DNA of 64,000 nt. It comes from an uncultured Latescibacterota bacterium (GTDB taxonomy: Bacteria > Latescibacterota > UBA2968 > UBA8231). Of the stretch, positions 2,398 to 62,453 are shown one piece after another. Positions within the stretch are counted from its first letter, which is position 1, and every line of letters begins with the position of its first letter. The stretch spans positions 5,402,049-5,466,048 of the forward strand of contig OY282352.1 of the NCBI GenBank assembly GCA_958295495.1, written 5' to 3'. The position numbers and the translations under genes are program-made. The notes beneath the pieces were generated by a model. The model was given only the letters and a program-made list of their open reading frames with translations. It did not search any database and was not told the origin of the DNA.

Positions 2398-3621
2398 TCA
2401 GCGAGCGCGCGATTTTTCTGCGTGCTGTAGGAGTATCTGTACGGATCTGAGGTTGTCGGCGAACGTGCGGTTTGAGGAGTCCAATTCGACTGCCCGCTCA
2501 AAGGCCTCCATGGCCTCTAGCCTATTCCCCGAGAGCAGTCTGACGGTGCCGATCCCATTGTGGGCGAGGGCGTAGGTGGAGTCGGCGAGCAACGCTGCTC
2601 GATAGGCCCGGGCCGCCTCTGCGGGTCGCTTCTGCTGCAGCAGAAGGTTTCCCAAGTTGTTGTGGGCGGCGGCCAGTTCGGCATCTCGTGAGATAGCCTG
2701 TCGGTAGAGCTGAATCGCTTTGTCCGTCTCGCCCCGTCTCGAATACAGGCGAGCCAGTGCCTGATAGAGAGCCGGATCGGTGGGGTCGTGGCGGATCGCC
2801 TCGCGGTACTTGGCGATGTCCGTGTCGATTGCTCTCAGCATCTCGAACCGACGCAACATGTTTTGCCCACTCTCCTTCTGCCCCAGCCGCATCAGACAGT
2901 TGGCCAGATTGAAGTGCGCCTTCGCATGGTAAGCATTGAGCTGAATGGCCCTCTCGAGATGCTGGCGAGCACTCGTGAAGTCCTTGGCGGCAAGCTGTAG
3001 CGCACCTAAGTGTGCCCAAGTGTTTGCGTGGGTCGAGTCGATCTGCAGCGTTCTCTCCAGAATCGCTTTGGCCGCGGCCGGCCGCCCCTGCTTCCCCAGC
3101 AGGTAGCCTAGCTGGTTGCGTGCCTCCACATCGTCGGGACGGATTCCCACCGCAATCTCCAGCGATTCGATGGCGCCGGCGTAGTCGCCTCGCCGTTCCC
3201 GCAGCTGCGCCAAAGCCTTGTGGGCGGACTGATATCCGCTGTCGGCCGCGATCGCTCGCGCCATCAGCTCTTCTGCCTCTTCGTGCCGTCCTGCCGCAGA
3301 GCGCACGGAGGCCAAGTTGTAATGGGCTGCCGCGTACTCGGGCTTGAGGGATATCGCTCGTTGGTACGACGCAGCGGCTTGGTCGAGACGGCCCTGCCGC
3401 GCCAGATTGTTGCCGAGATCGTAGTGGATGACCGGGTCCCGTGGCTCTAGCTGGGCCGCACGTTGCAGCAGCAGGATCGCTTCGGCGGATTCACCGCGAG
3501 CCGAGTGCTCGAGTGCGCTGTCGAGGACGGCTCGTGCGGCTTCTTGCCGCCTAAGTGCCTGTTTTTCGGGTACAGGCCCCTCGCAGGCACTCAGTAGGAA
3601 GAAGACAAAAACGGCAGGCAT
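2398..3621 (-). CDS. TPR-repeat lipoprotein of surface locus A
   Basis: A 407-residue protein. It opens with a short hydrophobic signal ending in the lipobox LSAC at about residues 10-13, so it is probably lipid-anchored. The rest is tetratricopeptide repeats with the usual pattern (A-x-x-x-L-G at helix A, A-x-x-x-Y/F at helix B). The repeats form an N-terminal block, a short non-TPR linker around residues 240-255, and a C-terminal block. TPR arrays bind other proteins, so a scaffold role at the membrane is likely. It lies 24 bases downstream of the parvulin lipoprotein, the same order as the paralogous pair at 46242-49408, and the linker region is shared with that paralog. It is the last gene of the minus-strand run. 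No enzymatic domain is visible. Confidence 0.85.
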   Translation of the reverse strand: MPAVFVFFLLSACEGPVPEKQALRRQEAARAVLDSALEHSARGESAEAILLLQRAAQLEPRDPVIHYDLGNNLARQGRLDQAAASYQRAISLKPEYAAAHYNLASVRSAAGRHEEAEELMARAIAADSGYQSAHKALAQLRERRGDYAGAIESLEIAVGIRPDDVEARNQLGYLLGKQGRPAAAKAILERTLQIDSTHANTWAHLGALQLAAKDFTSARQHLERAIQLNAYHAKAHFNLANCLMRLGQKESGQNMLRRFEMLRAIDTDIAKYREAIRHDPTDPALYQALARLYSRRGETDKAIQLYRQAISRDAELAAAHNNLGNLLLQQKRPAEAARAYRAALLADSTYALAHNGIGTVRLLSGNRLEAMEAFERAVELDSSNRTFADNLRSVQILLQHAEKSRAR

Positions 3622-3645
3622 GACACTCGCAGATCCAAGTGCTCT

Positions 3646-5253
3646 TCAATTCCGGGCATCGTCTTCGCGAGCACCCCAAGCGGTCAGTACGGAGCCCAGC
3701 GCGTCTTCATGGACCACGATCTCGTCGGCAAAGTCCCCGCGGAGTTGGACGAGCAACGAGTCCATCCTCTGGTGCTCGGCACTCAGGCGGAGGATTACTT
3801 CAATGTTTCGTTCCACCGCCTCATAGGGTCGCGCCGGTGTCTGACTCTTTTCGGCGATACGCAGAACGGAATACCCGCCAGGTACTTCGAGAGGTCCGAG
3901 GAGCGCACCCACTTCCGAGTCGAGAGCGAGGGGCGCGAGATCCCCGAGGAGCGGGTTGTCTCTCGTGACGAGCCACATTGACCCGCCTCTCTTTTTCGTC
4001 ACCTCGCGAATGCTGTGTGCCCGTGCGAGGGAGTCGATGGGGACACCCGCCTCGGCTTGGCCGCGGAGTCGTTGTGCCAGAGTGAGGTCCGCGACGAGCA
4101 CTTCATCGACGCGAACCGTCGGACGTGGACCATACAGCTCAGGGTGTTCCTCGTAGTACGCCCGTTTCTCGGCATCCGACACCTCAATACGTCCAACGAC
4201 GACCCGACGGAGGCTGTCGATCATCATTTCTTCCCTCAGCGCATTGACCTGATCGCGCACCCCGGGTTGACGGTCCATGCCACGACGCTTGGCTTCCTCA
4301 ACGACCAGGCGATCCCGGGCCTTCTTGTGCAACCAGCTTTGAGGATCGGCCTCAGCCGCGGCCAAGTCGATGTCGGAGGACAATAGCTGGCCGCTCGCCC
4401 AAGTGCAGAGCGGGTCCGACGCGGGGCGGTCGCCGGCCAGTGGCGCACAGACTAGGCCATTCGCCTTCGCCAAGCTGTCGGCGAAGGCCTCGAAGACGCG
4501 AGTCCTTTCGCGTACGCGGAACTCCTTGAGCACAACATCCCAGCGGCTCGCAATGTCGGCGGGGCGGCGATCGACAAGGCGAAACACGTGAACCCCGTAG
4601 CGGGAGGTCAGAGGTTCCGGGTAGGTTTGACCAGGCTCCAGAGACAGCAATTGCTCCCTGACCTCTGGGAGCACTTGGGATACAGACATGTAGCTAAAGT
4701 AGCCCCCCAAGTGCCCGGTCTCGTGGTGGATCGAACGTTCGACAGCGAGAACATCCAGCGGCTCTCCTGCAGCGAGGGCCTCGAGGACACTCCACGCATC
4801 GGCCTCATTTGTCAGCATCGCGTGCTGGAGCAGCACCTCTTCGGTGAACCCTCCTTCAAGGGCGAAGGTCTGGATGCCTGACGTGTCGATCCCCGCATCG
4901 ACAGAGACCGCGTTGAACAGGGCGCGCCAGACGAGTTTGCTCCGTAGCTGCTCGAGAGCAGCTACGATTCTCGACGATGCGGCCAGCTTCCTGCGTTGTC
5001 CCTCCATCACCAGAAGCTGTCTGTCTATCATCGCATTGAGTAGCTGGCGTTTCGTGTCGAGATTGGCGGGATCTTTGCCGCGATGGGAAGAGGCAAGAAG
5101 CTTCGTCGCCATCTTGGTGTATGCCTCGACATCGATCGCATCCCGGCCGATGATGGCGACGACGGTGGGCTTTGGCTCGTATTGTTCGGTCTGTTCGCAG
5201 GCCAGCAGTCCCGCTGTCAGCAAGATAATGGCGCGCGACAAAATTCTCATCAT
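3646..5253 (-). CDS. Tandem-parvulin peptidyl-prolyl isomerase lipoprotein (SurA/PrsA-like), locus A
   Basis: A 535-residue exported protein. The start chosen is the ATG at 5253, which overlaps the stop of the upstream barrel gene (ATGATGA overlap, 5250-5253); a second ATG follows at once. The N-terminus is a signal peptide with lipobox LLAC. Next comes a SurA_N-like helical region with the motif LNAMIDRQLLV, then two parvulin-like domains. The first includes GHLGGYFSYM and RYGVHVFRLVDRRP; the second includes RGGSMWLV and GGYSVLRIAEK. Such proteins assist folding of exported or outer-membrane proteins. Position between the barrel gene and the TPR lipoprotein suggests a dedicated chaperone for that barrel. 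Catalytic activity of either domain is not certain; PpiC-type domains often act only as chaperones. Confidence 0.82.
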   Translation of the reverse strand: MMRILSRAIILLTAGLLACEQTEQYEPKPTVVAIIGRDAIDVEAYTKMATKLLASSHRGKDPANLDTKRQLLNAMIDRQLLVMEGQRRKLAASSRIVAALEQLRSKLVWRALFNAVSVDAGIDTSGIQTFALEGGFTEEVLLQHAMLTNEADAWSVLEALAAGEPLDVLAVERSIHHETGHLGGYFSYMSVSQVLPEVREQLLSLEPGQTYPEPLTSRYGVHVFRLVDRRPADIASRWDVVLKEFRVRERTRVFEAFADSLAKANGLVCAPLAGDRPASDPLCTWASGQLLSSDIDLAAAEADPQSWLHKKARDRLVVEEAKRRGMDRQPGVRDQVNALREEMMIDSLRRVVVGRIEVSDAEKRAYYEEHPELYGPRPTVRVDEVLVADLTLAQRLRGQAEAGVPIDSLARAHSIREVTKKRGGSMWLVTRDNPLLGDLAPLALDSEVGALLGPLEVPGGYSVLRIAEKSQTPARPYEAVERNIEVILRLSAEHQRMDSLLVQLRGDFADEIVVHEDALGSVLTAWGAREDDARN

Positions 5254-7889
5254 TGACCGGTTCCAAGACCCGCAAACACGTCCACGAAGATCATCGTATT
5301 CGTGTCGGCATCTTCTCCACTGACGCTGCGTCGCGTCCACCGCATGCCGATGTTCGCGGTCAGCTCGTAGCCCAGATACGCCGCCTGATTGGAAAACTGC
5401 GATGCCAGAGTCAAGCGACTGAAGTCATCTTGGTAGTCAACCGCACCGCCTTCAGGGCGGCTCTTCAGGTTGTTGAAAAGCTCGTATTCGGTGCCAAGAC
5501 CGAGAGTCAGCTTAGGGGAGATGTGATAGCTGACGAGAAAGAAGAAAAGTTCCGCAAGGTCGCGCGTGCGGCGCTCGCGCGGGTTGGTCGGCGTGCGAGA
5601 AGAAAATCGCTGCTTCCACTGAGGCCACAGGAGCACAGTCGGCGTTGCCCAGAATTGACGATCTGCCTTGCTGATTAGGCCCAAGAACCTCTCATCCTGC
5701 GTTCCCTGCGCCGCATCCCCCTGCTGATTGTAGGCGTCGTACTTGAGCTTCGTCTGGGTCGTAACTAACGGATTCCAATCTACTTGAAGGTAGAGGGTGT
5801 TGATGAAGGTATCCTGCGCGATCAACGGATCGCTAAAGTCCTGCAGCGTGCCAGTAGAGAAGGCCGGCTGCACCCATTGGATGAGATTGTCGGGGATGTC
5901 ATCCTCGACTTTGCGGACGAACTCCATTAGCTGGATCGACAGACCACGCTGCGGATACTCCTTCTGCAGCGTCAGCAGACCGTAGGTGGAGACCGCCCGG
6001 CGGTCGCTGGAGTGCTGTTCCATCCGCGAGCGCCCCAACATGAGGCGGCTTTTCGGCATCAGTTCAACACCGACGTAGAGGTTGTATCCCTTGCTGTCCC
6101 GCTTGTACGGGTAATCCGGTTCCGTGTCGTTCTCGAAACGGTCGATGATGGTATTGTTGTTCATGTCAGTGCCGAAAAGGAATTCGGGCGAATCGACGTG
6201 GTAGCGGAAGAACGGCTCGCTGTAATCGGGCTGGTTGTTCTGATTCTGATTGAAGTCGGAGATGAAGTCTTGGTTCTCGTCGAGGCCCGGAAACACCTCC
6301 CGATCGGGGAACTGATTCTGGTTTGGAAACAGGGCACTCAGATTCGCGCTGCGGCGAATCCAGTCCGGGAAGCGATCTTGGTCGTCGTTGTCGTCGACGA
6401 GTTCGTAGAGATAGTTCTCCTCGTTCTCGTAATCGACGAAGCCTTGCGAGTCGGGGATGAACATAGACGTCGAGTACCCAGGCTCAATGCTGAAAAGCTC
6501 CCCGTATCCGAAAAAGGGGTACGCGATCTGAGATGCCGTGGCGTAGTACGCCTCGGACTCGTCGTGAGCGAGCGCTTGGTTGCTGCGGATGGTCTGGTTG
6601 GGGAACCGTCGGTTGCGCCGATTGCTCACGTACTCAGATCGGAGGTTGAAACCCCTCACATCGCTGATTGCGAGGTTCACCCCCCGCAACTCATTGCTCG
6701 AAGGGATCCCGTACTGAAAGCGGATAAATCGCTGGTTGGAGGCGTCGGTAATGTTGCCCTGCGCTTGGGCGACGGGCAGGAAGGCGGGTTCCAGCGTCGC
6801 GTTGGTCTGCAGGTTCGATGCGACTTCTACGAGGTAGTCGTTGGCCACTACTAGCCCCACCTCGATTCGCTCGATCTCCCGGAAATCGGTGATCTCCTCA
6901 TCGGGACCCGGCCGGAAATCCGTCTCAATGTTATACGTCAGGGTGACCGTATTGGAACCGCTGGCTTCTAGCAGGCCCTCGCGTGCGACACCCCCTTCGA
7001 TGATCGGGTCGATCTCGGGATGCTCGACGCCGTCGATGAAGATCTGCTCGCGGAGAAGCAGTGCGCCGCCGACGCCGTCCTCCGGTGAGTCGTCTGACAA
7101 ACGCACGATCAACCGTTGAACATTTCCCGCATTCAGGCGACCGCCGAGGACGCCACGCAGCGAATTTTCGTCGAGGGAGAGCGTCGAGTTCTGGTGAAAA
7201 GTCGTCAGATAGCTTCCCCCCAATGTCGCGAAATCGCCGACGGCCATGCTTCCGTTCAGGCCGAGTAACTGAGTGAAGGTCGTTTGCCGCGCCGGTCCTT
7301 GGTCGACGGCGATGGCCACGCGCCCGGGCGAATCTGCCCGCGCCGCCAAGACGCTCACTCCGTACTTATCGGTCTGGAAGTCCCACTGCAGACCGTCGAA
7401 AAGCGGTTTGGAGAAGGTGAGCGGCGTCATCGTGGAGCGAATGCCCTCGCCGATGGTCAGGGAGGTGTGGAACTGCCCCTTGGCCCCGGAGACCACGATG
7501 AGACGATTGAACCACTGGCTGAAATTTGGATCTTTCCAGATTCCGCTACCGAAATCCCGCGGATACTCATTCGTGAAGTTGTAGATGTTCCAGCCCTTGG
7601 TAAAGTAATTGCCGTAGAGGTCGTAGTAGCGGTCGCCTTCGAGCTCGGTTCTCACATATCGCCGGTACTGGTTCCGAGCATAGTTGGTGTAAGTACTCCC
7701 CTGCCAGCCATATAGTGAGTAGAGTGCTTGGGGCAGATACCACTTCCGCAAAGTTGGAACCAGGGTCTCAGGACTGATTCGGGCCCCTTCAGTGATGTAG
7801 GGATTGAACAGACCAACTTCGACTGCTCGGCCTGGCGTCCCTTGCAGTAGCAGAACCGCTAGGATGGAGCCGACCCCGTTGCGCTTCAT
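5250..7889 (-). CDS. Large outer-membrane/surface barrel-like protein, locus A member of a three-paralog family
   Basis: An 879-residue protein with a signal peptide (MKRNGVGSILAVLLLQG) and start ATG at 7889 behind GGGAG. I do not recognise it as a named family. It shares long collinear motifs with the proteins at 51846-54629 and 54629-57547. These are an N-terminal KWYLPQ..L..YGW...Y.NYAR motif, TLTPLTFSKP, LSDDSPEDGVGGA, and an acidic Asp/Asn block around residues 495-605 (DDNDDQDRFPDW, DENQDFISDFNQN, DMNNNTIIDRFEND, PDYPYK). The last 250 residues alternate polar and hydrophobic positions like outer-membrane beta strands and end FVDVFAGLGTGQ. The acidic loops resemble calcium-binding D-x-N-x-D loops. 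Unlike its paralogs it lacks the YGNRLGR motif after the signal peptide. Outer-membrane location is inferred, not shown. Confidence 0.7.
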   Translation of the reverse strand: MKRNGVGSILAVLLLQGTPGRAVEVGLFNPYITEGARISPETLVPTLRKWYLPQALYSLYGWQGSTYTNYARNQYRRYVRTELEGDRYYDLYGNYFTKGWNIYNFTNEYPRDFGSGIWKDPNFSQWFNRLIVVSGAKGQFHTSLTIGEGIRSTMTPLTFSKPLFDGLQWDFQTDKYGVSVLAARADSPGRVAIAVDQGPARQTTFTQLLGLNGSMAVGDFATLGGSYLTTFHQNSTLSLDENSLRGVLGGRLNAGNVQRLIVRLSDDSPEDGVGGALLLREQIFIDGVEHPEIDPIIEGGVAREGLLEASGSNTVTLTYNIETDFRPGPDEEITDFREIERIEVGLVVANDYLVEVASNLQTNATLEPAFLPVAQAQGNITDASNQRFIRFQYGIPSSNELRGVNLAISDVRGFNLRSEYVSNRRNRRFPNQTIRSNQALAHDESEAYYATASQIAYPFFGYGELFSIEPGYSTSMFIPDSQGFVDYENEENYLYELVDDNDDQDRFPDWIRRSANLSALFPNQNQFPDREVFPGLDENQDFISDFNQNQNNQPDYSEPFFRYHVDSPEFLFGTDMNNNTIIDRFENDTEPDYPYKRDSKGYNLYVGVELMPKSRLMLGRSRMEQHSSDRRAVSTYGLLTLQKEYPQRGLSIQLMEFVRKVEDDIPDNLIQWVQPAFSTGTLQDFSDPLIAQDTFINTLYLQVDWNPLVTTQTKLKYDAYNQQGDAAQGTQDERFLGLISKADRQFWATPTVLLWPQWKQRFSSRTPTNPRERRTRDLAELFFFLVSYHISPKLTLGLGTEYELFNNLKSRPEGGAVDYQDDFSRLTLASQFSNQAAYLGYELTANIGMRWTRRSVSGEDADTNTMIFVDVFAGLGTGQ

Positions 7890-7943
7890 GTCCAGCTCTC
7901 CCGCGTTAATTTGCCGTCACGTGTTGTCATTGGATCAACTTTC

Positions 7944-10295
7944 CTAGTAGGCTACGCTCACCAGCAGGGTTTCGGCCTCCGGCCCGGCGTCTGCCGGCAC
8001 CTCTACGCGGCAGACATAGATCCCAGGTTCCGCCGGCCGATCATCGACCATCCCATCCCACACTAGCTGCTGCGTCTCCCCTCGCTGGCCGGAGACGACC
8101 CGGAGCAAGTGCCCCGCCAAGTTGTAGAGCCGTAGCTCAGCGGCGACTCTGGTCCGAAATAGATCGAAGGTAATGCGCAAATTGTCGTTGATAGCGTCGC
8201 CGTTGGGCGTGATGACGCGGCTCGATACGACGAGATTGCGGATAGTACCTCCTGTGGCTATGTCCGGTAGGAAGACGAAGAGGGCCTCTCGGTCGGTGCG
8301 ATCGAACTCGCCATCGCCGTCGTCGTCAATGTCCGGCGGCCTCACTGCTTGCAGATTATCCGGTTGTGTGGAGTTGGCCACGGATGCGAGGAAGCGGGTG
8401 GGATTGCTCAGCGGTCGCGCGGTGAACATCACCTCTACCGAATCCCGCAGTACGCGTCGGGGCATGGCGACAACGAGCGTGTCCGCGGTGGACTCGACAG
8501 AGCCTTCGCTCTCTTCACCATTGATGCGCAGCGACACATCCCGCACTTCCCTTGGCACGGGCAGAATCACGCGATCGAAGCCCTGGTCTCTGGCCGTAAA
8601 GGTCGGTTGCAGCACGTAGCGAAAGTCCTGCCACTCACCGGCGGTCGCCTCCCGTGGATAGATCGCGGCCTCAACGCCTTTTTGCACCAGTGCTTCGTCG
8701 AAGTGAAGCGTCACTGACTTGAGGACCGGAGTGATTTTAGGATCGTCGGTCTCCAGACTCACCCGCATTCGCAATAGCTGTCTGGGGGTGGGCGACCGAA
8801 AGGGCTGGCCCGACGAAAGGTGCGGCTCACTCCAACCACTCCAGTCCGCACCTTCCTTGGGCACTTCGACGATCTCACCGCGGACCACTTTGGGCAGCTT
8901 GTTGTACTGCGCCTCCGTGATCGGCTCACCGTTCTTCTTGAAGAAAAACTGCTCCACATCGAGTTCATTGCCCGTGCGAGTCTGCACGGTGATTCGGGTC
9001 CCCGGCGGGGTGTCGGCATCCCACGAGATCCCCGTGATGCTCTTGGCCGCCCCGAGGTTGATGAAGTCGGATGTCAATGCCGCTTGTGCGGGGTAGCCAG
9101 CGGAATAGATGAATACTTCTAACATGATGTATCCAACTCTTCTGTTCTCGATGTCCCGGTGGTTCCAAAACAGATAGCGGCCGACCCGATCTGCTAGCTG
9201 GTGGTCAAAGACATAGCGTCTCGGTGCCCGGCTGTTGTCAACCAGCGAGACGCGCGTGTAGTCGAACGGGCTGCGGAATGGATCGTCTCGGGCGATCGGC
9301 GTTCCGTCTGTCATCTCTAGGTTGTAGCCGGTGTTGGTACCGCCGATTCCGAATGTGGTTCGACCTAGCCGATCGGGAGGCCACTGGTAGAACACGATTC
9401 GGCTGATGTGGAAGAGGGCCCCGAGGTCCCACTCGAACCACATCCCGCCATCCTGCCAGAAGCGATTGAGGGTATTTGAAATCAAGGGCCATACATTGTC
9501 AACGGTTCCATCGCGGATTTCTTCCACTTTTTTGAGTCCCGAGCGGATCGCCCCCCCTCGATCAAAGGTAGTCAACGCGATATTATCGCCGATCGCGGTC
9601 ACCTCAATCTCCGCCAGTGCCGCGTCTTTCCCAACCTCGTGGGGAAGGAAGCGGATGTAGTGTACGGGCATGAAGTCCAGCGACTTGCCCGTCACCAGAT
9701 TCTCGCCGCTTGCAATGTCTCCGAAATCCTCAATCGACAAGGGAATGACGATCTCTCCCAACTCGTTGGGCTCGGTGGTCGTGAAGACGCGATGGAACCG
9801 CCAGACATCTGCGGACGAAGACACTGTGGAACCTTCGCTGACAAAAACCGAGAAATCCCGGAAGGGGCGTAAGCCGAGGGTGTCTGGAAAGACCAAGCGG
9901 ATCTCCTCGAGCAGGACCACGCGGCCCAGGTCGATGTGTAGCCAGGCATTGTCGGGATCGGCACCAGCGTCGGGCTGCCACCACGTGGCGCGGTCGTTAT
10001 CGGCGAGAAACCGGGCGTCGCGGTTGTTCGACTGTGCCGTCAGCCCCCCGAAGACCTCGCCACTTTTGCGGGTGGGATGCGAAAACAGCGACATATCATC
10101 CATCGGATCGGTGTCCGTTCCATACCACCCCAGCTCGACCTGCCCGTCTGGCCGCAATTGAATGGCCCCAATCGGGCTCGTCCAAGCCTGCCAATCGCTG
10201 AGATGATCGAAGCGAAATTCATCGGCCGCCGCGTGACTGGACAGCAGCCATGCGGCCATGGCGGTGGTGCATAAGCTTGTTTTTGCCATAGTCAT
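7944..10295 (-). CDS. Exported discoidin-like protein with CHU_C/FlgD-type C-terminal tail (locus A, third)
   Basis: A 783-residue protein. The start ATG at 10295 has AGGAG six bases upstream; a second ATG two codons on is an alternative. After the signal peptide comes an F5/8 type C (discoidin-like) pattern, LADNDRATWW...HIDLGRVVLLEEIRLVFP, then a second similar module near residues 275-395 and a WSGWSEPHLS motif. The last 90 residues form an Ig-like tail: TPNGDAIND, LRLYNLAGHLLRVV, VWDGMVDD, EPGIYVCRVEV, ending LLVSVAY. The PNGDxxND start recalls CHU_C tails and the WDG...PGxY part recalls FlgD_ig/T9SS type A tails. Discoidin domains bind glycans or surfaces. It lies 54 bases upstream of the barrel gene in the same transcript direction. 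It lacks the N-terminal V-x-x-I-G-G motif of most of its paralogs. Confidence 0.75.
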   Translation of the reverse strand: MTMAKTSLCTTAMAAWLLSSHAAADEFRFDHLSDWQAWTSPIGAIQLRPDGQVELGWYGTDTDPMDDMSLFSHPTRKSGEVFGGLTAQSNNRDARFLADNDRATWWQPDAGADPDNAWLHIDLGRVVLLEEIRLVFPDTLGLRPFRDFSVFVSEGSTVSSSADVWRFHRVFTTTEPNELGEIVIPLSIEDFGDIASGENLVTGKSLDFMPVHYIRFLPHEVGKDAALAEIEVTAIGDNIALTTFDRGGAIRSGLKKVEEIRDGTVDNVWPLISNTLNRFWQDGGMWFEWDLGALFHISRIVFYQWPPDRLGRTTFGIGGTNTGYNLEMTDGTPIARDDPFRSPFDYTRVSLVDNSRAPRRYVFDHQLADRVGRYLFWNHRDIENRRVGYIMLEVFIYSAGYPAQAALTSDFINLGAAKSITGISWDADTPPGTRITVQTRTGNELDVEQFFFKKNGEPITEAQYNKLPKVVRGEIVEVPKEGADWSGWSEPHLSSGQPFRSPTPRQLLRMRVSLETDDPKITPVLKSVTLHFDEALVQKGVEAAIYPREATAGEWQDFRYVLQPTFTARDQGFDRVILPVPREVRDVSLRINGEESEGSVESTADTLVVAMPRRVLRDSVEVMFTARPLSNPTRFLASVANSTQPDNLQAVRPPDIDDDGDGEFDRTDREALFVFLPDIATGGTIRNLVVSSRVITPNGDAINDNLRITFDLFRTRVAAELRLYNLAGHLLRVVSGQRGETQQLVWDGMVDDRPAEPGIYVCRVEVPADAGPEAETLLVSVAY

Positions 10296-10304
10296 TGCAA
10301 ACTC

Positions 10305-12374
10305 CTAGTAGACGACGGGTACTGTCAGTAGTCGCTGTGCGGTCTCCCTTTGGGTATTCACCTCGACCAACAGCAGATACAGGCCTGGAGGGACTAAGGT
10401 GCGGTTATCATCGAGACCATCCCAAGACACCTGCTGAGTCGATCGGCCCCGATTCTCAGCGGCCAAGAGCGCAATATAGCGTCCGGCGACATCGTAGATT
10501 TTTACTGTCACGTCTGCTTGGTTGACGAAGAGGACACTGAACTCGACTCGGATTTCGTCATTTACCCGGTCCCCATTCGGGGTCAGCACCGACTGCATGA
10601 GGCGCACACCATCGAGAACGGTCGTCCGCGCATCGCGCGAGAAAACCTGCAGACTGTTGGTAGGGACATCATCCCTCGCATTCCCCCCGTTCACCGACTG
10701 GGGCAGGTTGTCGCTGGCAGAGTCGATGACCTCCCCCGCGAAGATCGTGGAAGAGGTGAAGAGAGAGGTCTCGAGGTCAATGCGGACGGGGATATCATTG
10801 CTGCGCGACACTCGGTTGGAGGTGAAAAAGACAAAAAGCTCGCCGTCGATGGCGATCCCATCCCCGGGCCACACGCTGTCGGGAACCACCGAGACGAGGT
10901 CTGCATCGCCCATCCTCAGCCCCTCAAAACGAGTGCCAAAGGGGACCGTCAGTCGCACGGCATCAAATCCCTGTGAATCGCTGGCAAAGTCTGCCGCGAT
11001 GTCGAAGTATAGCTGACGGCGCTCTCCAATGGGGAATTCCGCCGGCTGCGCCTCAGTCGTCGTCGCCGTTGGGGCCGCATCCGCCAAGGAGACCTCGCCG
11101 ACGAGCGACGAAGCGAGCAATGGGGAAACTTCAAACTGTAGTGAATCGAGGCGACCGATGGACAGCACATCGTCTGTCAGGAACGTCGCCCGGAACTGCA
11201 AATACTGGCGGCCGTCCGGGGATCGGTTCAACTGATTAGGGGAGCGATAGGGTGAAGACCACGGTGACCAGTTGGTCTCGTCGTCGAGGATGACACTGCG
11301 CTGATTGGGATAGCGGACGGAGAGACTCTCCCGTCGGGGCAGGGCGGCGCGCCGCCATTCCGACTCTGTTACCTCCTTGTCCCGCCCGAAATCATCTACG
11401 ATGTAGTGGGACAGCGGCGTGTCGTCGGTGCCGGAGCGCGTCTCCAAGAGCAGTCGGGCGACGCCTTCGGGGTCTTCGACGAGCGCGTCCGCTTCCCGGT
11501 CTCGTCGAAGCGAGCGGAAGGAGTAGGTGATCTCGCCTAAGTTGACGGGCTCATCGAGCGGAATGGCAGTGGAAACATAATGTACGTTCGTCGGAACGCC
11601 CTCTCCGTAGGCCTGAAACTCGGCCATGCTGTAAAACTGGTCCGCCAAACTCAGATCGAGTCGGATGAATCTGGCCGGCTGCAACGGAAAGCTGACATCG
11701 ACTTGGCTTTTCGCGTTGGACTTGGTTTCCTCGATGACGGTGGCAAGCGTCTTCTTAGGAATCGGCTCGGAGCCTTCGAGCAAAAATTCCTCCGCCTCGT
11801 TCTGTATCGAGAGACGATACGCCTGTGGCGACCCCTGTTTGTTGGGGATGCCTCGCTTATCGACGCCCGATTGCCGAGGGAAAAATAGGATCCGGTTGAC
11901 CGGCGTCTCTAAGACTAGATCGAAGGTCCAAATTTCTTCCTGCAGGCGCAGGATCTGGTTGAAGGTACTTATCGGCCCGTCCCCGACTAGCTGACGCAGT
12001 GAGATCGCGGTCTCGGGATCGCCGTCGATGATCACAGCCTCCTCGCGGCTGTACCCACCGTGCCAGAAACGTGGGTCAACGCCGGCTTGGAAACCAAAGG
12101 CCTTGCCTGTTGTCTGTCCCTCTGCCCAAGATAGGCCGAATATATTGGCAAAGACCCCGGGGCCGACCATGATGTTCTCCCATGGCCGCAGCTCTCTGGG
12201 CTGCAAGGCGCCCGGAGCGGTCGTGTCATCGAGGGCGACGGCCTCCTGACGCACCTCGGACCACGAGAAATCCCCCGCCGCCCCGCCGATCTGCACCACG
12301 CGGGGCTGACCGTAGGCCGCAACGGCTGCCGCGACTATCAGGATCGTTGCGGTAAGTACCATTCGCGTACGCAT
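10305..12374 (-). CDS. Exported discoidin-like protein with CHU_C/FlgD-type C-terminal tail (locus A, second)
   Basis: A 689-residue exported protein. The ATG at 12374 follows GAGGAAG. Signal peptide, then the N-terminal motif RVVQIGG shared by most paralogs in this window. A discoidin-like section follows (VIIDGDPETAISLRQ, FDLVLETPVNRILFFPRQ), then WSPWSSPYRSP, then a domain with a GFDAVRLTVP motif. The tail includes LTPNGDRVND, VKIYDVAGRYIALL, VSWDGLDD and VPPGLYLLLVEV, and the protein ends LLTVPVVY. Only nine bases separate it from the next gene, so it is part of one operon. Probable location is the cell surface or outside the cell; ligand unknown. Confidence 0.75.
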   Translation of the reverse strand: MRTRMVLTATILIVAAAVAAYGQPRVVQIGGAAGDFSWSEVRQEAVALDDTTAPGALQPRELRPWENIMVGPGVFANIFGLSWAEGQTTGKAFGFQAGVDPRFWHGGYSREEAVIIDGDPETAISLRQLVGDGPISTFNQILRLQEEIWTFDLVLETPVNRILFFPRQSGVDKRGIPNKQGSPQAYRLSIQNEAEEFLLEGSEPIPKKTLATVIEETKSNAKSQVDVSFPLQPARFIRLDLSLADQFYSMAEFQAYGEGVPTNVHYVSTAIPLDEPVNLGEITYSFRSLRRDREADALVEDPEGVARLLLETRSGTDDTPLSHYIVDDFGRDKEVTESEWRRAALPRRESLSVRYPNQRSVILDDETNWSPWSSPYRSPNQLNRSPDGRQYLQFRATFLTDDVLSIGRLDSLQFEVSPLLASSLVGEVSLADAAPTATTTEAQPAEFPIGERRQLYFDIAADFASDSQGFDAVRLTVPFGTRFEGLRMGDADLVSVVPDSVWPGDGIAIDGELFVFFTSNRVSRSNDIPVRIDLETSLFTSSTIFAGEVIDSASDNLPQSVNGGNARDDVPTNSLQVFSRDARTTVLDGVRLMQSVLTPNGDRVNDEIRVEFSVLFVNQADVTVKIYDVAGRYIALLAAENRGRSTQQVSWDGLDDNRTLVPPGLYLLLVEVNTQRETAQRLLTVPVVY

Positions 12375-12390
12375 AAATACTTCCTCGCTA

Positions 12391-14277
12391 CTAGTAGGAC
12401 ACCGCCACTATCCGGAGACGCTCAAACGTTTCGGTCTGCGTTTCGACGCGCAGTCGGACGATGTAGTGCCCCGGAGGCAATTTGCGGGCCTCGGTCCATC
12501 TGGCTAGGTAGCTGCCTGCCGCCTGATCCTCTTGCAGGAGGGTATGAACGAGCCGACCCGATAGATCGTGTACCGAGACGCGTACTTGCGCTGGTTCGAT
12601 GAGGAATACGAGGTCGTACTGCACGGTTAGGTCGTCGTTTCGCTCGTCTCCATTCGGGGTCACAACACCGGCCCCCAACTCGAATCGGCCGAGTGGGTCC
12701 CCGAGAGAACCGAAGACGACGACGGAGTTGGTGCCGAGCAGGTTGGTGGCATCACCGGGAGCAACCCGCTGCGGAACTGCACCGGCTGAATCCAAGAGCC
12801 AACCCTCGAACAGGGTTGTGTACCGCAAGGGCGTTGCTGTAAACCTCACAAAGAGCGTGGCGTTGCTCGCGGCCGTGATTGGGCGGCTCGGGAAGAATAG
12901 AGATATGCCGCTGTCATCGAAAAAGATGCTGTCGATGGCCACTGCCTCTCGGTCCTCGCCGACCGACACCGATTCCAACTGAGCAGTGCCCGGCGTTGCG
13001 ATGCGCAAACCATCGAATCCATCATTGCCGGACAAATCCGCAGCCAAGGCGTACTCAAAGGTCGCCGGCTGCCCCGTAGCGACGGTAGCCACACCTGCCG
13101 GCGGGAAGGGATCGCCGACGCGAACGACCTCGGCTCGCGTCCTTAGAGCGAGGGGAGACGAGTGGGTGAATTCGAGTGCATCTATTCGGATTACGTCGGT
13201 CGCAGTACCTTCGAAGAAGAATCTGAACTGGAAGAAGGGCCGCGGCATCGGCAGAAAGTCGAGGCTAATCTCGTAGGAGCCCGTCGAATCAATTGTCACC
13301 GGATTCGACCACGCACTCCAGTTTGCTGCATCGTATCTCGTCGTGCGCTCGCGGTCGATGAGGTTCTGGTACGCCTCCTCTGAGATCTCCGTCTCACTGC
13401 CGGTTTCGAGATCGATCTGGAAATAGGACTCAGGCGAGGTGTCGTTGCCCGCCCGGACTTGGAACACCGCCTGCACCGGATCGTCCGCAGCCGCGTCGGG
13501 CTCGGTGGATACGCGGGTCGTGTGGACCGTTAGGCGACCAAAGTTGCGCCCACCTCCTCCAGCGAAATCAATGAAGTTGGAGACGTACTGAGCACGGGGC
13601 ACAAACCCCCGGCCGAACACCTCAATCTCGGCGATGTCAAAGGGGTTGGGTTCCAGGGTTTCCAAGCGGATATATCTGACGAGTTGGCGTGGAAACTCGG
13701 CCTTTGTCCGAACCTCGTTGGAAATCTCGACCCGTGTTAGGGTCTCGTAGATCGGCCGCTCGTCTGCTCCAAAAGAGCGCCCGTCGCTAACCTTGATCTC
13801 GTAGGCCCGCAGGAAGGCGGTGCTATCTTCCGGGTTGGGAAAAAAGGCAATCCGTTCGACGGGAAACGAGGCACCTAAATCGAAGACGAAGATCCGGCCA
13901 TCCTGAGACTGGCCAGGAATCTGAAATCGCTCCCCAGTGGATGTGTTTGGGTTGCCGTCGATGAGAACGTTATTCGGCTGACCGTCAGCAACGCGCGCCC
14001 ACACCCGGGCCCCGCCCTCGGGGATGAACTCGTCCGGGCCCGTTCCAACATCTGTCCAGCGAACAGCGGCGACGATGTTCTCGTCGGCCGTGAAGCCTGC
14101 CGGTAGCAGCAAATCGGCCGTGACCTGCGCCCCCGCAGCCACTAGCTCCACGCTCTGCCAAGTGTCGCCACCCTGTCCGATGCGCACGGTCTCGATCTGG
14201 CCGCCCGCATCAATGCTCAGGAGAAACGTCAGGACAAGCGGGACGGCTATACCCGCGCGTTTGGCTGTCAGGGGCAC
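12391..14277 (-). CDS. Exported discoidin-like protein with CHU_C/FlgD-type C-terminal tail (locus A, first)
   Basis: A 628-residue exported protein. The start is GTG at 14277, one base after the TGA of the upstream lipoprotein gene and without a clear ribosome site of its own, which suggests translational coupling. Signal peptide, N-terminal ETVRIGQGGDTW (a variant of the V-x-x-I-G-G motif), discoidin-like region with VLIDGNPNTSTGERF and VFDLGASFPVERIAFFPN, then WSAWSNPV. The tail has TPNGDERND, VSVHDLSGRLVHTLL, LPPGHYIVRLRV and the end LRIVAVSY. The WDG signature of the other tails is replaced here by WTEARK, so this tail is slightly divergent. Confidence 0.75.
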   Translation of the reverse strand: MPLTAKRAGIAVPLVLTFLLSIDAGGQIETVRIGQGGDTWQSVELVAAGAQVTADLLLPAGFTADENIVAAVRWTDVGTGPDEFIPEGGARVWARVADGQPNNVLIDGNPNTSTGERFQIPGQSQDGRIFVFDLGASFPVERIAFFPNPEDSTAFLRAYEIKVSDGRSFGADERPIYETLTRVEISNEVRTKAEFPRQLVRYIRLETLEPNPFDIAEIEVFGRGFVPRAQYVSNFIDFAGGGGRNFGRLTVHTTRVSTEPDAAADDPVQAVFQVRAGNDTSPESYFQIDLETGSETEISEEAYQNLIDRERTTRYDAANWSAWSNPVTIDSTGSYEISLDFLPMPRPFFQFRFFFEGTATDVIRIDALEFTHSSPLALRTRAEVVRVGDPFPPAGVATVATGQPATFEYALAADLSGNDGFDGLRIATPGTAQLESVSVGEDREAVAIDSIFFDDSGISLFFPSRPITAASNATLFVRFTATPLRYTTLFEGWLLDSAGAVPQRVAPGDATNLLGTNSVVVFGSLGDPLGRFELGAGVVTPNGDERNDDLTVQYDLVFLIEPAQVRVSVHDLSGRLVHTLLQEDQAAGSYLARWTEARKLPPGHYIVRLRVETQTETFERLRIVAVSY

Positions 14278-14278
14278 G

Positions 14279-15001
14279 TCAGCGTGCCGAAACGGTAGCG
14301 GGTGGCCGGTACCCCTTGAAGACGTCGCGTTGGAACCCGTAGGTCAGGTCTAGGGTCTCCACCGGCTCATCAGCGTAGTTGAAACGAACGGCCATGTCGT
14401 TGACGCGGACGGCTAGCTCGGTCACGTCTGGAGGCATGGGCGGAAATACGATAAAGCCTTCGGACTCTTGGCCGCTGAAGATCATCTCGTCGGCATACAT
14501 GTGGAGACGCAGCAGATCTTCGCGCTCGCGCATGCGCGCATAGTAGTTCCCGGCCCAAGCCAACGCATAGGCTCGGTAGTACTCACTGATTTCGAGGAAT
14601 GTCAGGGGCTTGTAGAAACGCTCGCTGGCGGATCGCAACTCGATTCTAGACGGATCGATCCTGACCTTCGGATACGCATAGTTCTTGACCCTAAGCAGGA
14701 ATACGGTAAATCGCTGGGGCGTAAACGACTCTCCTGGGGGGGTCCAATCACCGAATGTAAAGGGGTTAGTTGACAGTGCGCCGTTGCCCGATTTTGTGGC
14801 GAAACTGCGGTTGAGCTCCGCGTCCGTCATGGGTCGCAGCGCGATATCGAGTCTCTCGAAGACGTAGGCCACCGATCCATCATCATGGACCACCATGTGT
14901 TCGCCTTGCTCGGACTTAGGCTTGGGCTGGAGAGGCCCCGGGAAGTAGCGCCCACAGCCGGACACAATCAGGATCAGCAGGCAGCTACAGAGCACTCTCA
15001 A
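14279..15001 (-). CDS. Hypothetical lipoprotein heading the locus A operon
   Basis: A frame open to 15070 includes a terminator hairpin (15033-15059), so the ATG there is unlikely to be used. The TTG at 15001 has GGAGAG upstream and gives a clean signal peptide with lipobox VSGC. The resulting protein has 240 residues. After the lipid anchor there is a region with SVAYVFERLDIALRPM, then a mixed alpha/beta region ending FPPMPPDVTELAVRVNDM and VETLDLTYGFQRDVFKGY. I do not recognise the family. It is one base from the next gene, so it is probably co-transcribed with the three FlgD-tailed proteins. Confidence 0.68.
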   Translation of the reverse strand: MRVLCSCLLILIVSGCGRYFPGPLQPKPKSEQGEHMVVHDDGSVAYVFERLDIALRPMTDAELNRSFATKSGNGALSTNPFTFGDWTPPGESFTPQRFTVFLLRVKNYAYPKVRIDPSRIELRSASERFYKPLTFLEISEYYRAYALAWAGNYYARMREREDLLRLHMYADEMIFSGQESEGFIVFPPMPPDVTELAVRVNDMAVRFNYADEPVETLDLTYGFQRDVFKGYRPPATVSAR

Positions 15002-15032
15002 AACGATCTCTCCGCGCAGTTTAGATAAAATG

Positions 15033-15059
15033 AAGGGGGGAGGACCGTCCTCCCCCCTT
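15033..15059 (-). terminator. Rho-independent terminator of the CBM9-like gene
   Basis: Perfect 12-base inverted repeat (AAGGGGGGAGGA / TCCTCCCCCCTT) with a three-base CCG loop. On the minus strand it is followed by CATTTTAT. It separates the CBM9-like gene at 15093-15992 from the downstream lipoprotein operon. Confidence 0.8.
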
Positions 15060-15092
15060 AGATGGAACAAGAGCTGTGGAGCGTTTCCCTAC

Positions 15093-15992
15093 TTACCGCA
15101 TCAGGGCTTTCACCGCACCCCAACTACTCCCCTCAATGGCTGTGCCTGTGGCGAACTCACCGGTGCCTAGCAAGGTAAATTCGGAGGAGAATTCCGAGCT
15201 ATGCGCACCGCCGTTTTGGATGTGCGTCGTGATCTGGTGCGTTCGGCCTCCACTGTCCGCCTCATTGAGGCTCAGGGACATGCCGATCGTCTGGCCTGCT
15301 GCAAAGATCCAGCGGACGCTTGCGTCGCGGCCATCCGGCTGGTACGGATCGTAGGCCTCCATGCGAACTTCGTAGTTGACCGTCACGTCAGCGGCCAAGT
15401 GACCAGCACCCGCTGGCGAGACCACGACGGCCCCCTCAACAGCACCCGACTCGGGCCCCCACTGCATCTCCGCTGGCTGGTTCCAGCGCAGGAAGGACAC
15501 GAGGGGGTAACCACCGGGACGGGCGTAGTGGAAGGTCCACTGCTGGTGTCCGGTGCGGAGGGCGTCAGCCGCCTCGTTCCACACACCGTGGTCGGGATCC
15601 AGAATGAGTTCGAGGTCATCGTCGTGCCAACCATCGTTCGGCTCGGTGACGTCGGCGTTCAGCGTGTCATCAACGACGCGCGTGAATACGTAGAGCCGAT
15701 TGTCCGGCTCTGGTGTCCAGCCGACGTGGTGAGCAATGTCGAGGTCGCTGCGCGCTGGAAACTCACCCTCGCCGATCACGTCGCACAGTTGGTCGCGACC
15801 GATGATGAAGTCTGGATCGAACCAAGCCCAGTCGCTGTCGTCGCCATCGGGGTTCATGGATTCTGGATTGGGCACCTGCAGGGCAAAATAGCCGATACCG
15901 TTGCAGTTTTCGTATGCCGCTACCGGAGCCACGAAACCTGCCAGCAGCACAGCACCGAGGACTATTGTGCCAAAAACCGCTTTCTTGTGCAT
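15093..15992 (-). CDS. Exported CBM9/DOMON-like protein with SWG..KA C-terminus (locus A)
   Basis: A 299-residue exported protein. The ATG at 15992 follows GAGAGGAG, and the signal peptide is cleaved after VAA or AYA. The mature part has a CBM9-like pattern: a DGDDSDWAWFDP opening, a LYVFTRVVDDTLNADV strand, then DDDLELILDPDHG. Such folds bind carbohydrates or, in DOMON relatives, haem or sugar. It ends SSWGAVKALMR, matching the end of the otherwise diverged paralog at 59441-60403. It is monocistronic, with a strong terminator just downstream, and is divergent to the CRTAC1 gene at 16303. Its position at the head of locus A mirrors that of its paralog in locus B. Confidence 0.78.
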   Translation of the reverse strand: MHKKAVFGTIVLGAVLLAGFVAPVAAYENCNGIGYFALQVPNPESMNPDGDDSDWAWFDPDFIIGRDQLCDVIGEGEFPARSDLDIAHHVGWTPEPDNRLYVFTRVVDDTLNADVTEPNDGWHDDDLELILDPDHGVWNEAADALRTGHQQWTFHYARPGGYPLVSFLRWNQPAEMQWGPESGAVEGAVVVSPAGAGHLAADVTVNYEVRMEAYDPYQPDGRDASVRWIFAAGQTIGMSLSLNEADSGGRTHQITTHIQNGGAHSSEFSSEFTLLGTGEFATGTAIEGSSWGAVKALMR

Positions 15993-25375: not shown

Positions 25376-25382
25376 GGCCGTC

Positions 25383-42699: not shown

Positions 42700-44342
42700 T
42701 GGGCGCGTTGATACTGTGCGCGATAGGGTGCCTCGTCGGGGCCGCTAATGGGTGGAGCGAGCCGGTTACCGCGCAATTTGTCGATCGGGCGGCGGCCGCC
42801 GGCCTGACGCAGCCCAATGTCTCGGGCAGTGATCAAAGCTACATAGTCGAAGGGATGATGGGCGGTACGGCCTTTTTCGATTACGACCGCGATGGCGACG
42901 TGGATTTGTACGTGGCCAACGGCTCTTCTTTTGCGGGCTTTGCTGCGGGCGTGCATCCGGCCAACCAGCTCTACCGCAACGATGGCGGTCGCTTTGCCGA
43001 TGTGACGGTCGTCGCTAGCGTGGGGGATACGAGTTGGTCAATGGGATGCGCGGCGGCCGATTACGACAACGACGGCCACACGGACCTCTACGTTACCAAC
43101 TTTGGCCGCAATACGCTCTATCGCAACGAGGGCATCGGTCGCTTTGCTGATGTGACCACGGCGGCTGGGGTGGACGATATGGGGTGGGGTACCGGTGCCA
43201 GCTTTGGGGATTACGACCGCGACGGCGACGTAGATTTGTACGTGGCCAATTACGTAGATTTTTCCCTCGACTACGAATCTCCAATACCCTGCCTGTGGAA
43301 GAACGTGAAGGTGTACTGCGGGCCGGTGGGGCTGCTACCGGCTGCAGATGTGTTTTACCGCAACAACGGCGACGGCACCTTTGCGGAGTACGGAAAAGAG
43401 GCTGGCCTACAGGGCACGGCATTCTACGGCATGAGTGCGCTGTTCGGCGACTACGACAACGATGGGTGGCCCGACCTTTTCGTGGCCAACGACTCCACGC
43501 CCAATCTGCTTTTTCGCAATCGCCAAGGCGGCCGCTTCGCCGAGGAGGCGCTCATGGCCGGGGTGGCGTACAGCGGAGAAGGGGTGACGCAGGGGTGCAT
43601 GGGGGCCGCTTGGAGCGATTACGACAACGACGGTCTGTTCGACCTCTTCGTCACCAATTTCGCCGACGAGTACAACGCGCTGTACAGGAATGAGGGCAGC
43701 GGCTTTTTTGCGGATGTGTCTTTTATTGCGGGGATCGGGGCTGCGCCGGCCGAATTGGTCTCGTGGGGTACGGGCTTTTTCGACTACGACAACGACGGCG
43801 ACCGCGACCTTTTCGTGGCCAACGGCCACACCTACCCGCAGGCCGACCTGCCGAGGGTCAACTCCAGCTACGAACAAGCCAACTCGCTGTTTGAGAATAG
43901 GGAAGGGAGGCTGGTGGAGGTGTCGGCCCTAGCCGGTCCGGGCTTTGCCTTGCCCCGCGTCAGCCGTGGAACCAGTTTCGCCGACTACGACGGCGATGGC
44001 GACATCGACTTATTCATTCTCAATCTCAACGGCCCGCCAACTCTGTTGCGCAACGATGGCGACCACGGCAATCACTACCTGCTGGTGCGCGCCGTGGGTA
44101 CGGGGAGCAATCGCGACGGAATTGGTGCGCGGGTGATTATTAGTGCCGGCGGGCAGACCCAGTACGCCGAGGTGCAGAGCGGGGGAAGCTATTTGTCCCA
44201 CAACGATCTGCGGCTGCACTTTGGCTTGGGCAAGGCCGAGCGCGTCGACCGGCTCAAAGTGCGCTGGCCCAGCGGGGTGGTCCAGGTGCTGAGCGACATT
44301 GCCGCCGACCAAGTCCTGACCGTCGTTGAGCCGCGTCAATAG
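42699..44342 (+). CDS. CRTAC1-family exported protein, second of tandem pair
   Basis: A 547-residue protein starting at the GTG that overlaps the preceding TAG by one base, with GGAG just ahead, so it is translationally coupled. It has an ordinary signal peptide, without a convincing lipobox, unlike the first copy. FG-GAP/VCBS loops (DYDRDGDVDLYV, DYDNDGHTDLYV, DYDNDGWPDLFV, DYDNDGDRDLFV, DYDGDGDIDLFI) and a C-terminal ASPIC/UnbV domain (NRDGIGARV, GGSYLSHNDLRLHFGLG, VRWPSGV) are clear. The anchored first copy and soluble second copy could form a complex. It converges with the FlgD-tailed gene and overlaps it by seven bases. Confidence 0.85.
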   Translation: MGALILCAIGCLVGAANGWSEPVTAQFVDRAAAAGLTQPNVSGSDQSYIVEGMMGGTAFFDYDRDGDVDLYVANGSSFAGFAAGVHPANQLYRNDGGRFADVTVVASVGDTSWSMGCAAADYDNDGHTDLYVTNFGRNTLYRNEGIGRFADVTTAAGVDDMGWGTGASFGDYDRDGDVDLYVANYVDFSLDYESPIPCLWKNVKVYCGPVGLLPAADVFYRNNGDGTFAEYGKEAGLQGTAFYGMSALFGDYDNDGWPDLFVANDSTPNLLFRNRQGGRFAEEALMAGVAYSGEGVTQGCMGAAWSDYDNDGLFDLFVTNFADEYNALYRNEGSGFFADVSFIAGIGAAPAELVSWGTGFFDYDNDGDRDLFVANGHTYPQADLPRVNSSYEQANSLFENREGRLVEVSALAGPGFALPRVSRGTSFADYDGDGDIDLFILNLNGPPTLLRNDGDHGNHYLLVRAVGTGSNRDGIGARVIISAGGQTQYAEVQSGGSYLSHNDLRLHFGLGKAERVDRLKVRWPSGVVQVLSDIAADQVLTVVEPRQ

Positions 44343-46241: not shown

Positions 46242-47708
46242 CTACCGGGCTTGGTGCGCTAGCTGCCGCGCTTTTTCGCGGTGTGCTCGGCTTTTTTGCA
46301 GGTGTCCCAATTGCTGGTACGCGTCGCTGAGGTAGAGATGGGCGCGTTCATTGGCTGGGTCCAACTCGACGGCGCGGGCATACGCGCGTGCGGCCTCGGC
46401 GAATTGGGCCAATTTCGCGTATGCTACCCCGAGGTTTAACTGCGCTGAGGTGCTGGTGGGACTGAGCCGAGCGGCCTCGGCGAAATGGGCGATGGCCGCG
46501 GCCAAATCGCCCGTACGGGCCGCGGCCAAGCCGAGCCCATAGGCGGCCTCGTGCAAGCTAGAGTCGAGTGCGGCGGCGCGCAGCAGGCTGACCCGAGCGG
46601 CCGCATAGTGCTGCTGCTTGAGGAGGATCATCCCTAGCCGAGCGTGGCTGAGCGGGTCTTTTTCATCGAGGGCGAGGGCTTGGCGGAAGTTATCGGCCGC
46701 GGCAGCCAAATCGCCCTGATAGGTGAAGAGGACGCCTAGACTGCTGTGCGCGTCTTTTAGTTTGGGGTTGATGGCGAGGGCGTTTTGATATTCGAGGATG
46801 GCTTGGTCGTATTGGCCTTGTAGGGCGAGGTGCAGGGCGAGATTGTAACGGGCCGTGGCCGAGCCAATGGTCACCGCGCTCACCTCGGGCAGGGATTGCT
46901 CCGAGCCGATGCCCCGGTGGTGCTGGCGGAGGATCTCCGAGCGTGCGAGGGCCTTTTCGCCTTGTTCGCGCTGCCCGGTGCGCAAGTAGAGTTGAGACAG
47001 ATTGAAGTGGACTTGGGGCGAATAGGGGTTGAGCGCGGCGGCTCGCTCTAGGGCTGCCACGGCTTGGTCGTAGTGCCCTTGAGCGCGGTGCAGGAGGCCG
47101 CGGTGGAAATGCGCTTCGGCGTCTTCGGGCGCGTACTGCACGGCGCGGTACAGGTGACTTAGGGCTTGGTCTAAAATGCCTTGTCGTCGGTAGTACAGGC
47201 CCAGCTTCTTGTGAGCTGGCGCGAGCGTGGAGTCCACCTGTAACGCGGCCAGATAGGCGCGCTCGGCGCGGTGCGCGCTGTCGCGGTAGCTGTACACGAG
47301 GCCGAGGTTGTAGTGGGTGGTGGCGCGTTGTGGATCGAGTTCGATGGCCCGTTGGAAGGCACGCAAGGCTGCATCGGTGTCGCTGTAGCGGGCCTCGGCG
47401 AATGCGCGGGTCATCTCAATGGCACCGAGCAGGTCGTAGAGCTCGGGGTCGCTAGGGGCGCGATCTAAGCCGGCGCGTGCTGTTTCCCGCGCTTGTTCGT
47501 ACTGGCCGACTTGTAGGTAGCAACGTCCTAGATAGCGATAGACGGCCTGCGATGGAGACGGGCCTTGCACTGCTCGCTGCAAGACCTCAATCGCGGCTTG
47601 GTACTCTCGGTTGTGGAAGTGTTGCTGACCCTCGACTAAGAGAGGGTCGTCGCGGGCGCAGCCCCAAGCGAGCAAAAAGAGCAGGAGCACGACCCAGCTC
47701 AACTTCAA
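46242..47708 (-). CDS. TPR-repeat lipoprotein of surface locus B
   Basis: A 488-residue protein. Its ATG at 47708 overlaps the stop of the parvulin gene by four bases. It has a signal peptide with lipobox AWGC. It consists of two blocks of tetratricopeptide repeats separated by a linker near 255-280 (EKALARSEILRQ), collinear with the locus A protein (QNMLRRFEMLRA). Likely a lipid-anchored scaffold working with the parvulin lipoprotein encoded just before it. Confidence 0.85.
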   Translation of the reverse strand: MKLSWVVLLLFLLAWGCARDDPLLVEGQQHFHNREYQAAIEVLQRAVQGPSPSQAVYRYLGRCYLQVGQYEQARETARAGLDRAPSDPELYDLLGAIEMTRAFAEARYSDTDAALRAFQRAIELDPQRATTHYNLGLVYSYRDSAHRAERAYLAALQVDSTLAPAHKKLGLYYRRQGILDQALSHLYRAVQYAPEDAEAHFHRGLLHRAQGHYDQAVAALERAAALNPYSPQVHFNLSQLYLRTGQREQGEKALARSEILRQHHRGIGSEQSLPEVSAVTIGSATARYNLALHLALQGQYDQAILEYQNALAINPKLKDAHSSLGVLFTYQGDLAAAADNFRQALALDEKDPLSHARLGMILLKQQHYAAARVSLLRAAALDSSLHEAAYGLGLAAARTGDLAAAIAHFAEAARLSPTSTSAQLNLGVAYAKLAQFAEAARAYARAVELDPANERAHLYLSDAYQQLGHLQKSRAHREKARQLAHQAR

Positions 47709-60436: not shown

Positions 60437-60474
60437 GGACGGGTAGGTCTTCATTGATCTACCCGTCCTTTTTT
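60437..60474 (+). terminator. Rho-independent terminator of the locus B CBM9-like gene
   Basis: GGACGGGTAGGTC (60437-60449), six-base loop, GATCTACCCGTCC (60456-60468), then TTTTTT. A 13-base stem with one G-U pair. An open frame beginning at 60454 runs through this hairpin, which shows that the next gene starts later. Confidence 0.9.
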
Positions 60475-60516
60475 GTCGTATTTTTTGCATTCCCTCAGTC
60501 AAGTCACAAGGCCGTT

Positions 60517-62442: not shown

Positions 62443-62453
62443 AGGAGCCGAGT

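Follow-up and report, generated by a model that had tools for sequence, protein, structure and literature searches.

Recurrent cassettes pairing discoidin-like proteins that carry type IX-like tails with a predicted outer-membrane barrel in a Latescibacterota genome

A 64,000-nucleotide stretch of DNA from an uncultured, sponge-type Latescibacterota bacterium (the window, base 5402049-5466048 of a 5.97-Mb single-contig genome) carries two copies, locus A and locus B, of a gene cassette that seems to be an independent counterpart of an established partnership by which secreted adhesins are held at the cell surface, built on a barrel that appears to be previously undescribed. Its members are denoted here as C (CBM9-like exported protein), S (small lipoprotein), D (discoidin-tail protein), B (barrel), P (tandem-parvulin lipoprotein) and T (tetratricopeptide repeat, TPR, lipoprotein). 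The tightest unit is D with the barrel, together with S as judged by phyletic pattern; the parvulin is usual but not universal, and the TPR gene is the loosest member, present in roughly half of the loci with long flanks. The explanation that we favour, with about even confidence, is that D proteins leave the cell by type IX secretion and that the barrel serves as their outer-membrane shuttle or anchor, similar to PorP/SprF in its working while unrelated in sequence.

Conservation and copy number of the cassette

Open reading frames (ORFs) were called in 29 regions of the genome itself, clustered and labelled with hidden Markov models. The same models were used to label 80 related loci from other genomes, which were the best 80 of 380 barrel relatives, and phyletic patterns were surveyed in 64 genomes of the phylum. 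By barrel sequence, the closest relatives are Latescibacterota genomes, some of which were deposited as Gemmatimonadetes.

A D gene lies directly 5' of the barrel gene on the same strand in 72 of the 80 related loci, the remainder being mostly contig ends or unlabelled genes. After removal of barrels more than 70% identical, D was upstream in 29 of the 35 loci having a visible upstream gene, and in the window's own genome 23 of the 31 barrel runs have it directly ahead of their first barrel. The gap between the two genes is short, with a median of 16.5 bp and at most 100 bp in 67/72 cases. This adjacent order persists across barrels that are 40-50% identical, across different families and in low-copy genomes, the contigs of the latter being the same as some of the 80 related loci and giving no independent evidence. 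The complete order C-S-D-D-D-B-P-T recurs in several other genomes (e.g., locus L096), and variants occur. When 32 loci with long flanks were compared, D was present in all 32, C and P in 24 each, T in 17 and S in 16.

The phyletic pattern is similarly close. The barrel occurs in 39 of the 64 phylum genomes, D occurs in the same 39 and is absent from the same 25, and S was found in 38 of the 39 and in no genome outside them. In its strong form, P tracks the barrel families except for the divergent f7, and it occurs in addition in one small genome that has no barrel. SprA was found in 60/64 genomes, those without B and D among them, and the cassette is thus an addition to type IX secretion and not a core part of it. 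An earlier note, made from the letters of the window, had proposed a lineage-specific apparatus, with a conserved neighbourhood as its test; such a lineage-specific neighbourhood is supported by the adjacency of D to the barrel homologues of related genomes and by the shared presence and absence.

The cassettes rank among the largest gene families of this bacterium. A barrel profile matched 46 segments of the genome, of which 34 are full-length copies scoring above 830 bits, and about 7 divergent barrels lie in three further places. In the fetched regions, 41 barrels fall in 25 regions, and the genome has about 25 recurring cassettes. The D profile matched more than 150 segments, around 100 of which reach beyond the tail; there are 25-30 tandem-parvulin lipoproteins (counted by PPIC domains, about 27 proteins) and about 15 copies of S. 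As counted from the maps, a parvulin gene is present in 21/25 barrel regions, the three divergent clusters being among those without one. The number of listed genes located within 10 kb of a barrel gene was 75 of 102 for D, 20 of 30 for P and 8 of 10 for S, as compared to means of 10.2, 3.0 and 1.0, respectively, under circular rotation, and none of 4000 rotations reached the observed counts. This test excluded near-identity rotations and replaced an earlier distance test with unrestricted rotations. The claim that the repetition goes beyond chance therefore holds on the scale of the whole genome.

Two kinds of variant cassette were observed. In the divergent clusters (3633595-3641999, 5530274-5538896 and 5266990-5269419) D is present and the parvulin absent; two clusters contain tandem triplets and two are adjoined by TPR proteins of about 1040-1100 aa. 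These clusters may represent an older branch of the system. In loci L139, L142, L156, L062 and L044, a PMT_2-like glycosyltransferase with TPRs directly follows the barrel, and the preceding D is often 970-1090 aa long; the cargo of such cassettes may be glycosylated.

Barrel fold, cargo tails and type IX secretion genes

The barrels are 870-970 aa long. An AlphaFold2 model of the locus A barrel, based on 64 sequences, showed long alternating strands, about 22-24 in number, with a predicted local distance difference test score (pLDDT) of 73 and a predicted template modelling score of 0.66. Two insertions are located on the long-loop side, at residues ~235-394 (beta-rich) and ~469-598. The second is acidic, poorly modelled and the most conserved part of the protein, and most of the invariant acidic residues lie within it (DNDDxD ... 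FPGxDENxDFxSDFNQN ... PEFLFGxDxNNN); this loop probably binds Ca2+. A Foldseek search with the model gave 52 matches at E<=0.001, and all 50 listed are outer-membrane barrels or complexes thereof, with low TM-scores. The best match was MtrB (6r2q_B; E 4.4e-08, 8% identity, TM-score 0.26/0.32), a member of the MtrB/PioB-type sheath porins, although no multihaem cytochrome was recognised in the cassettes. FimD/PapC ushers are among the matches, and there is weak likeness to TonB-dependent receptors and a SusCD-type complex. The model shows no soluble non-barrel fold, and the predicted outer-membrane beta-barrel agrees with what the earlier note had suggested. No Pfam or NCBIfam family was found for 14 barrels at E<=1 beyond chance matches, no sequence relative of the barrel in the PDB, and no relative in the viral contigs searched.

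For the D proteins, matches to CHU_C (PF13585) were found in 51 of 59, to FlgD_ig in 52 and to F5/8 type C in 22, and the type B model TIGR04131 matched 20 at E<=1e-3. The tails contain the motif (T)PNGDxxND. The C-terminal residue of the 72 D proteins encoded directly upstream of a barrel is Tyr in 68, Phe in 3 and His in 1, and the genome's other tail proteins have Lys or Pro at this position. For the D protein next to the locus A barrel, modelled by AlphaFold2 with a pLDDT of 87.9, profile and fold place discoidin/CBM32 lectin domains at residues ~89-220 and 232-396 and a FlgD Ig domain near the C-terminus. A signal peptide was read by eye, and the model has a helix at residues 4-18. The common tail had been described as FlgD-like. 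That the tail is shared stands, and the FlgD Ig model, which has the same fold, does match, but the tail is better described as a type-B-like type IX secretion C-terminal domain (CTD) of the CHU_C kind. A reading as flagellar hook protein was rejected: discoidin domains are present, there is also a match to CHU_C, and the genes showed no flagellar context.

Type IX secretion is described mainly from Bacteroidota. The genome of the window encodes SprA (a 2106-aa ORF, SprA_N 89.2 bits), and its PorV gene (238 bits) lies beside a PorU-like C25 peptidase (269 bits), as expected of porU/porV. A weaker PorV/PorQ-family gene (72 bits, below the cut-off) occurs within one cassette, beside S and C (G000:C1:108285-109151, L041:1286-2152), and a second match of equal score lies at 4888651-4889517. 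A search of the genome with PF11751 (PorP_SprF) gave no match, but controls were silent too and absence is not proven. In the open library searched, no paper links type IX secretion or T9SS with Latescibacteria or Latescibacterota; the passages searched in two genome papers on the phylum mention outer membrane porins and eukaryotic-like proteins, and not such a cassette.

Of the lipoproteins, S has no sequence relative in the PDB. P resembles SurA/PrsA/PpiD-type parvulins and EpsD-family isomerases in its two PPIC domains, its lipobox and partial matches to the EpsD and PpiD models. It differs from them in scoring below all curated NCBIfam cut-offs and in having about 25-30 copies tied to cassettes.

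Proposed role of the barrel and alternatives

In Flavobacterium johnsoniae, cargo with a type B CTD needs for its secretion a PorP/SprF barrel encoded directly downstream, which acts as shuttle and surface anchor by binding its cargo, and some of the operons also include a PorE-type TPR lipoprotein (PMC12618676, PMC9143113). For cognate pairs, predicted complexes are reported to exceed an ipTM of 0.8 (PMC12618676). The cassettes have a similar layout: a gene for adhesin-like cargo with a CHU_C-like tail is followed by a gene for an outer-membrane barrel, several cognate-looking pairs occur per genome, SprA and PorV are present, and some loci include a TPR lipoprotein. Because of this likeness, a shuttle or anchor role is favoured for the barrel.

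In the proposed mechanism, the cassette would display lectin-like proteins at the cell surface. D would cross the inner membrane by Sec via a putative signal peptide, stay competent in the periplasm with the help of the tandem-parvulin lipoprotein, and pass the outer membrane through the shared translocon SprA, directed by its type-B-like CTD. The barrel encoded after D would then receive it and retain it as a non-covalent shuttle or anchor, holding it by the two large outward insertions, including the acidic, probably Ca2+-binding loop. S and, in some loci, the TPR lipoprotein may be accessory subunits of the surface complex, and the discoidin and CBM9 domains would bind glycans or other surface ligands. 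The parvulin and TPR lipoproteins are likely helpers. The earlier note had pictured an apparatus for folding, export or display of the tail-bearing proteins. The link to these exported proteins is retained, while a stand-alone exporter fits less well with the encoded SprA, PorV and PorU-like proteins. Since these housekeeping type IX genes are encoded and SprA is so widespread in the phylum, we read the cassette as a module of cargo and outer-membrane partner, with D most likely exported by the housekeeping system.

Several observations weigh against this explanation. The TIGR04131 matches shown individually score below the curated cut-off of 35 bits, and the type A model TIGR04183 also matches 9/59 D proteins. 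The presence pattern of B and D clusters by family, so that few independent events (losses) underlie the phyletic match. Barrel divergence tracks the D body more than the D tail when the two are split, and it tracks every D protein of a locus to a similar degree, the adjacent one no more than the others. This lack of tail- or neighbour-specific co-divergence points to inheritance as a block and gives no proof of contact, leaving a dedicated match of tail and barrel unsupported. In Mantel tests co-divergence was significant for nearly all cassette members (r 0.40-0.90), which likewise indicates block inheritance and not specific contact; TPR gene divergence does not track barrel divergence. Finally, the barrel, with its 870-970 aa and ~22-24 predicted strands, is some three times as large as PorP/SprF (~300 aa, 14-stranded FadL-type) and has no detectable PorP_SprF homology. 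The cassettes differ from PorP/SprF pairs also in the number of barrels (40 copies vs about 10), in the addition of tandem parvulin, small lipoprotein and CBM9 protein, and in the terminal Tyr of the cargo tail.

A doubtful but conceivable alternative is nutrient capture in the manner of SusC/SusD, in which B would be an importer, D and the CBM9 protein surface glycan-binding lids, and the many copies would serve many ligands. In both systems a highly multiplied outer-membrane barrel is encoded beside a surface carbohydrate-binding-like protein, and the large expansion with many paralogues per genome, the discoidin and CBM9 binding domains, the strict D-B pairing and the weak structural likeness to TonB-dependent receptors and SusCD all fit with such a role. 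However, a TonB plug or receptor family was found in 0/14 barrels, there is no SusD family, and D carries a type IX-like tail and no lipobox. Moreover, the largest gene clusters of the 29 regions, which were not scanned family by family, yielded no recognisable recurrent glycoside hydrolase or lyase family and no consistent set of degradative enzymes.

It is unlikely that the barrel family, instead of being a helper of the PorP/SprF kind, is a new outer-membrane secretion or display platform, which together with the parvulin and small lipoproteins would itself export or assemble the Tyr-ended D proteins and would have multiplied 40-fold to give a variable lectin coat for life in a host. Rather improbable, too, is the plainer proposal that B is the export channel for D, independent of type IX secretion and with the parvulin as dedicated chaperone. 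The strict co-occurrence of B and D in one operon-like unit, the FimD/PapC ushers among the Foldseek matches and the unusual conserved C-terminal Tyr would suit an exporter, but the D tails are type IX-like, SprA, PorV and PorU-like genes are encoded, and the best structural match is a sheath barrel, with low TM-scores. Least probable is that separately useful surface genes duplicated as a block, their co-location reflecting regional duplication with no shared mechanism: co-divergence of almost all members, not specific to D tail and B, is what this would give, but the adjacent D-B order is kept between barrels of 40-50% identity, in different families and in low-copy genomes, and B, D and S share presence and absence.

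The two loci of the window and implications

All parts of the list that the earlier note gave for locus A are present on the minus strand (Table 1), in the order C-S-D-D-D-B-P-T and with intergenic gaps of -4 to 54 bp, which makes the locus one operon-like run. The likely start of P, read from the sequence, is at 5253 and overlaps the barrel stop by 4 bases. The repeat in locus B of every part except S was also borne out, with two barrels in place of one, and the locus extends past the window edge. S was not found in locus B nor in the next 20 kb, where more D genes occur. The barrels of the window share 36-38% identity with one another.

Table 1. Cassette genes of locus A and locus B (window numbering)
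Gene	Locus	Position	Strand	Features
T, TPR lipoprotein	A	2398..3621	-	about 6 TPR stretches
P, tandem PPIC-parvulin lipoprotein	A	3646..5253	-	Rotamase, Rotamase_2; two PPIC domains, lipobox
B, barrel	A	5250..7889	-	879 aa, exported, predicted outer-membrane beta-barrel, two long loop-side insertions
D, directly upstream of barrel	A	7944..10295	-	signal peptide (by eye), two discoidin/CBM32-like domains, beta domains, CHU_C-like C-terminal domain, ends -VAY
D, second	A	10305..12374	-	CHU_C over Pfam cut-off (30.6 bits), ends -VVY
D, third	A	12391..14277	-	F5/8 type C over cut-off; TIGR04183 over cut-off (25.9 of 23 bits); ends -VSY
S, small lipoprotein	A	14279..15070	-	no known family
C, CBM9-like exported protein	A	15093..15992	-	head of the run
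D	B	44336..46237	-	CHU_C over cut-off
T, TPR lipoprotein	B	46242..47708	-	
P, tandem-parvulin lipoprotein	B	47705..49408	-	
D, directly upstream of barrel 1	B	49563..51818	+	CHU_C over cut-off
B, barrel 1	B	51846..54629	+	~37% identity to locus A barrel
B, barrel 2	B	54629..57547	+	~38% identity to locus A barrel
C, CBM9-family exported protein	B	59441..60403	+	assigned by clustering; own sequence without Pfam match
D	B	60454..62442	+	CHU_C over cut-off
D, further	B	62439..64000	+	runs off window end; ends at 64367 in window numbering

Other genes of the window lie beside or between the loci. FG-GAP/ASPIC-UnbV proteins are encoded at 16291-18036, 40828-42699 and 42699-44342; such proteins, of which there are 29 in the fetched regions, often adjoin TPR genes beside cassettes and are possibly further surface proteins of the set. 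The ORF at 33618-39953 (+), of 2111 aa, looks like a 1582-aa-type protein joined to a DUF6785/DUF6784-like membrane protein; in the former, FtsX-like permease segments and a peptidase-like N-terminal part were recognised by eye. At another site of the genome (2290478-2298656) a 1582-aa relative and a DUF6785-type gene are separate but close, and the ORF is a possible gene fusion. At 20215-28394, an adenine-specific DNA methylase-like gene and other restriction- or defence-like genes lie between related genes of 827-829 aa (22892-25375 and 28462-30951), which suggests an insertion between paralogues.

Taken over the phylum, the results suggest that nearly all Latescibacterota possess type IX secretion and that, in this phylum, type-B-like cargo came to be paired with an unrelated barrel of the outer membrane. 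Should this barrel indeed be a shuttle or anchor, the arrangement of cargo and partner arose at least twice, and a comparison of the two would reveal its essential features. Because the cassettes are among the largest families of this bacterium and the relatives include sponge-associated genomes, they are prime candidates for surface recognition by uncultured symbionts.

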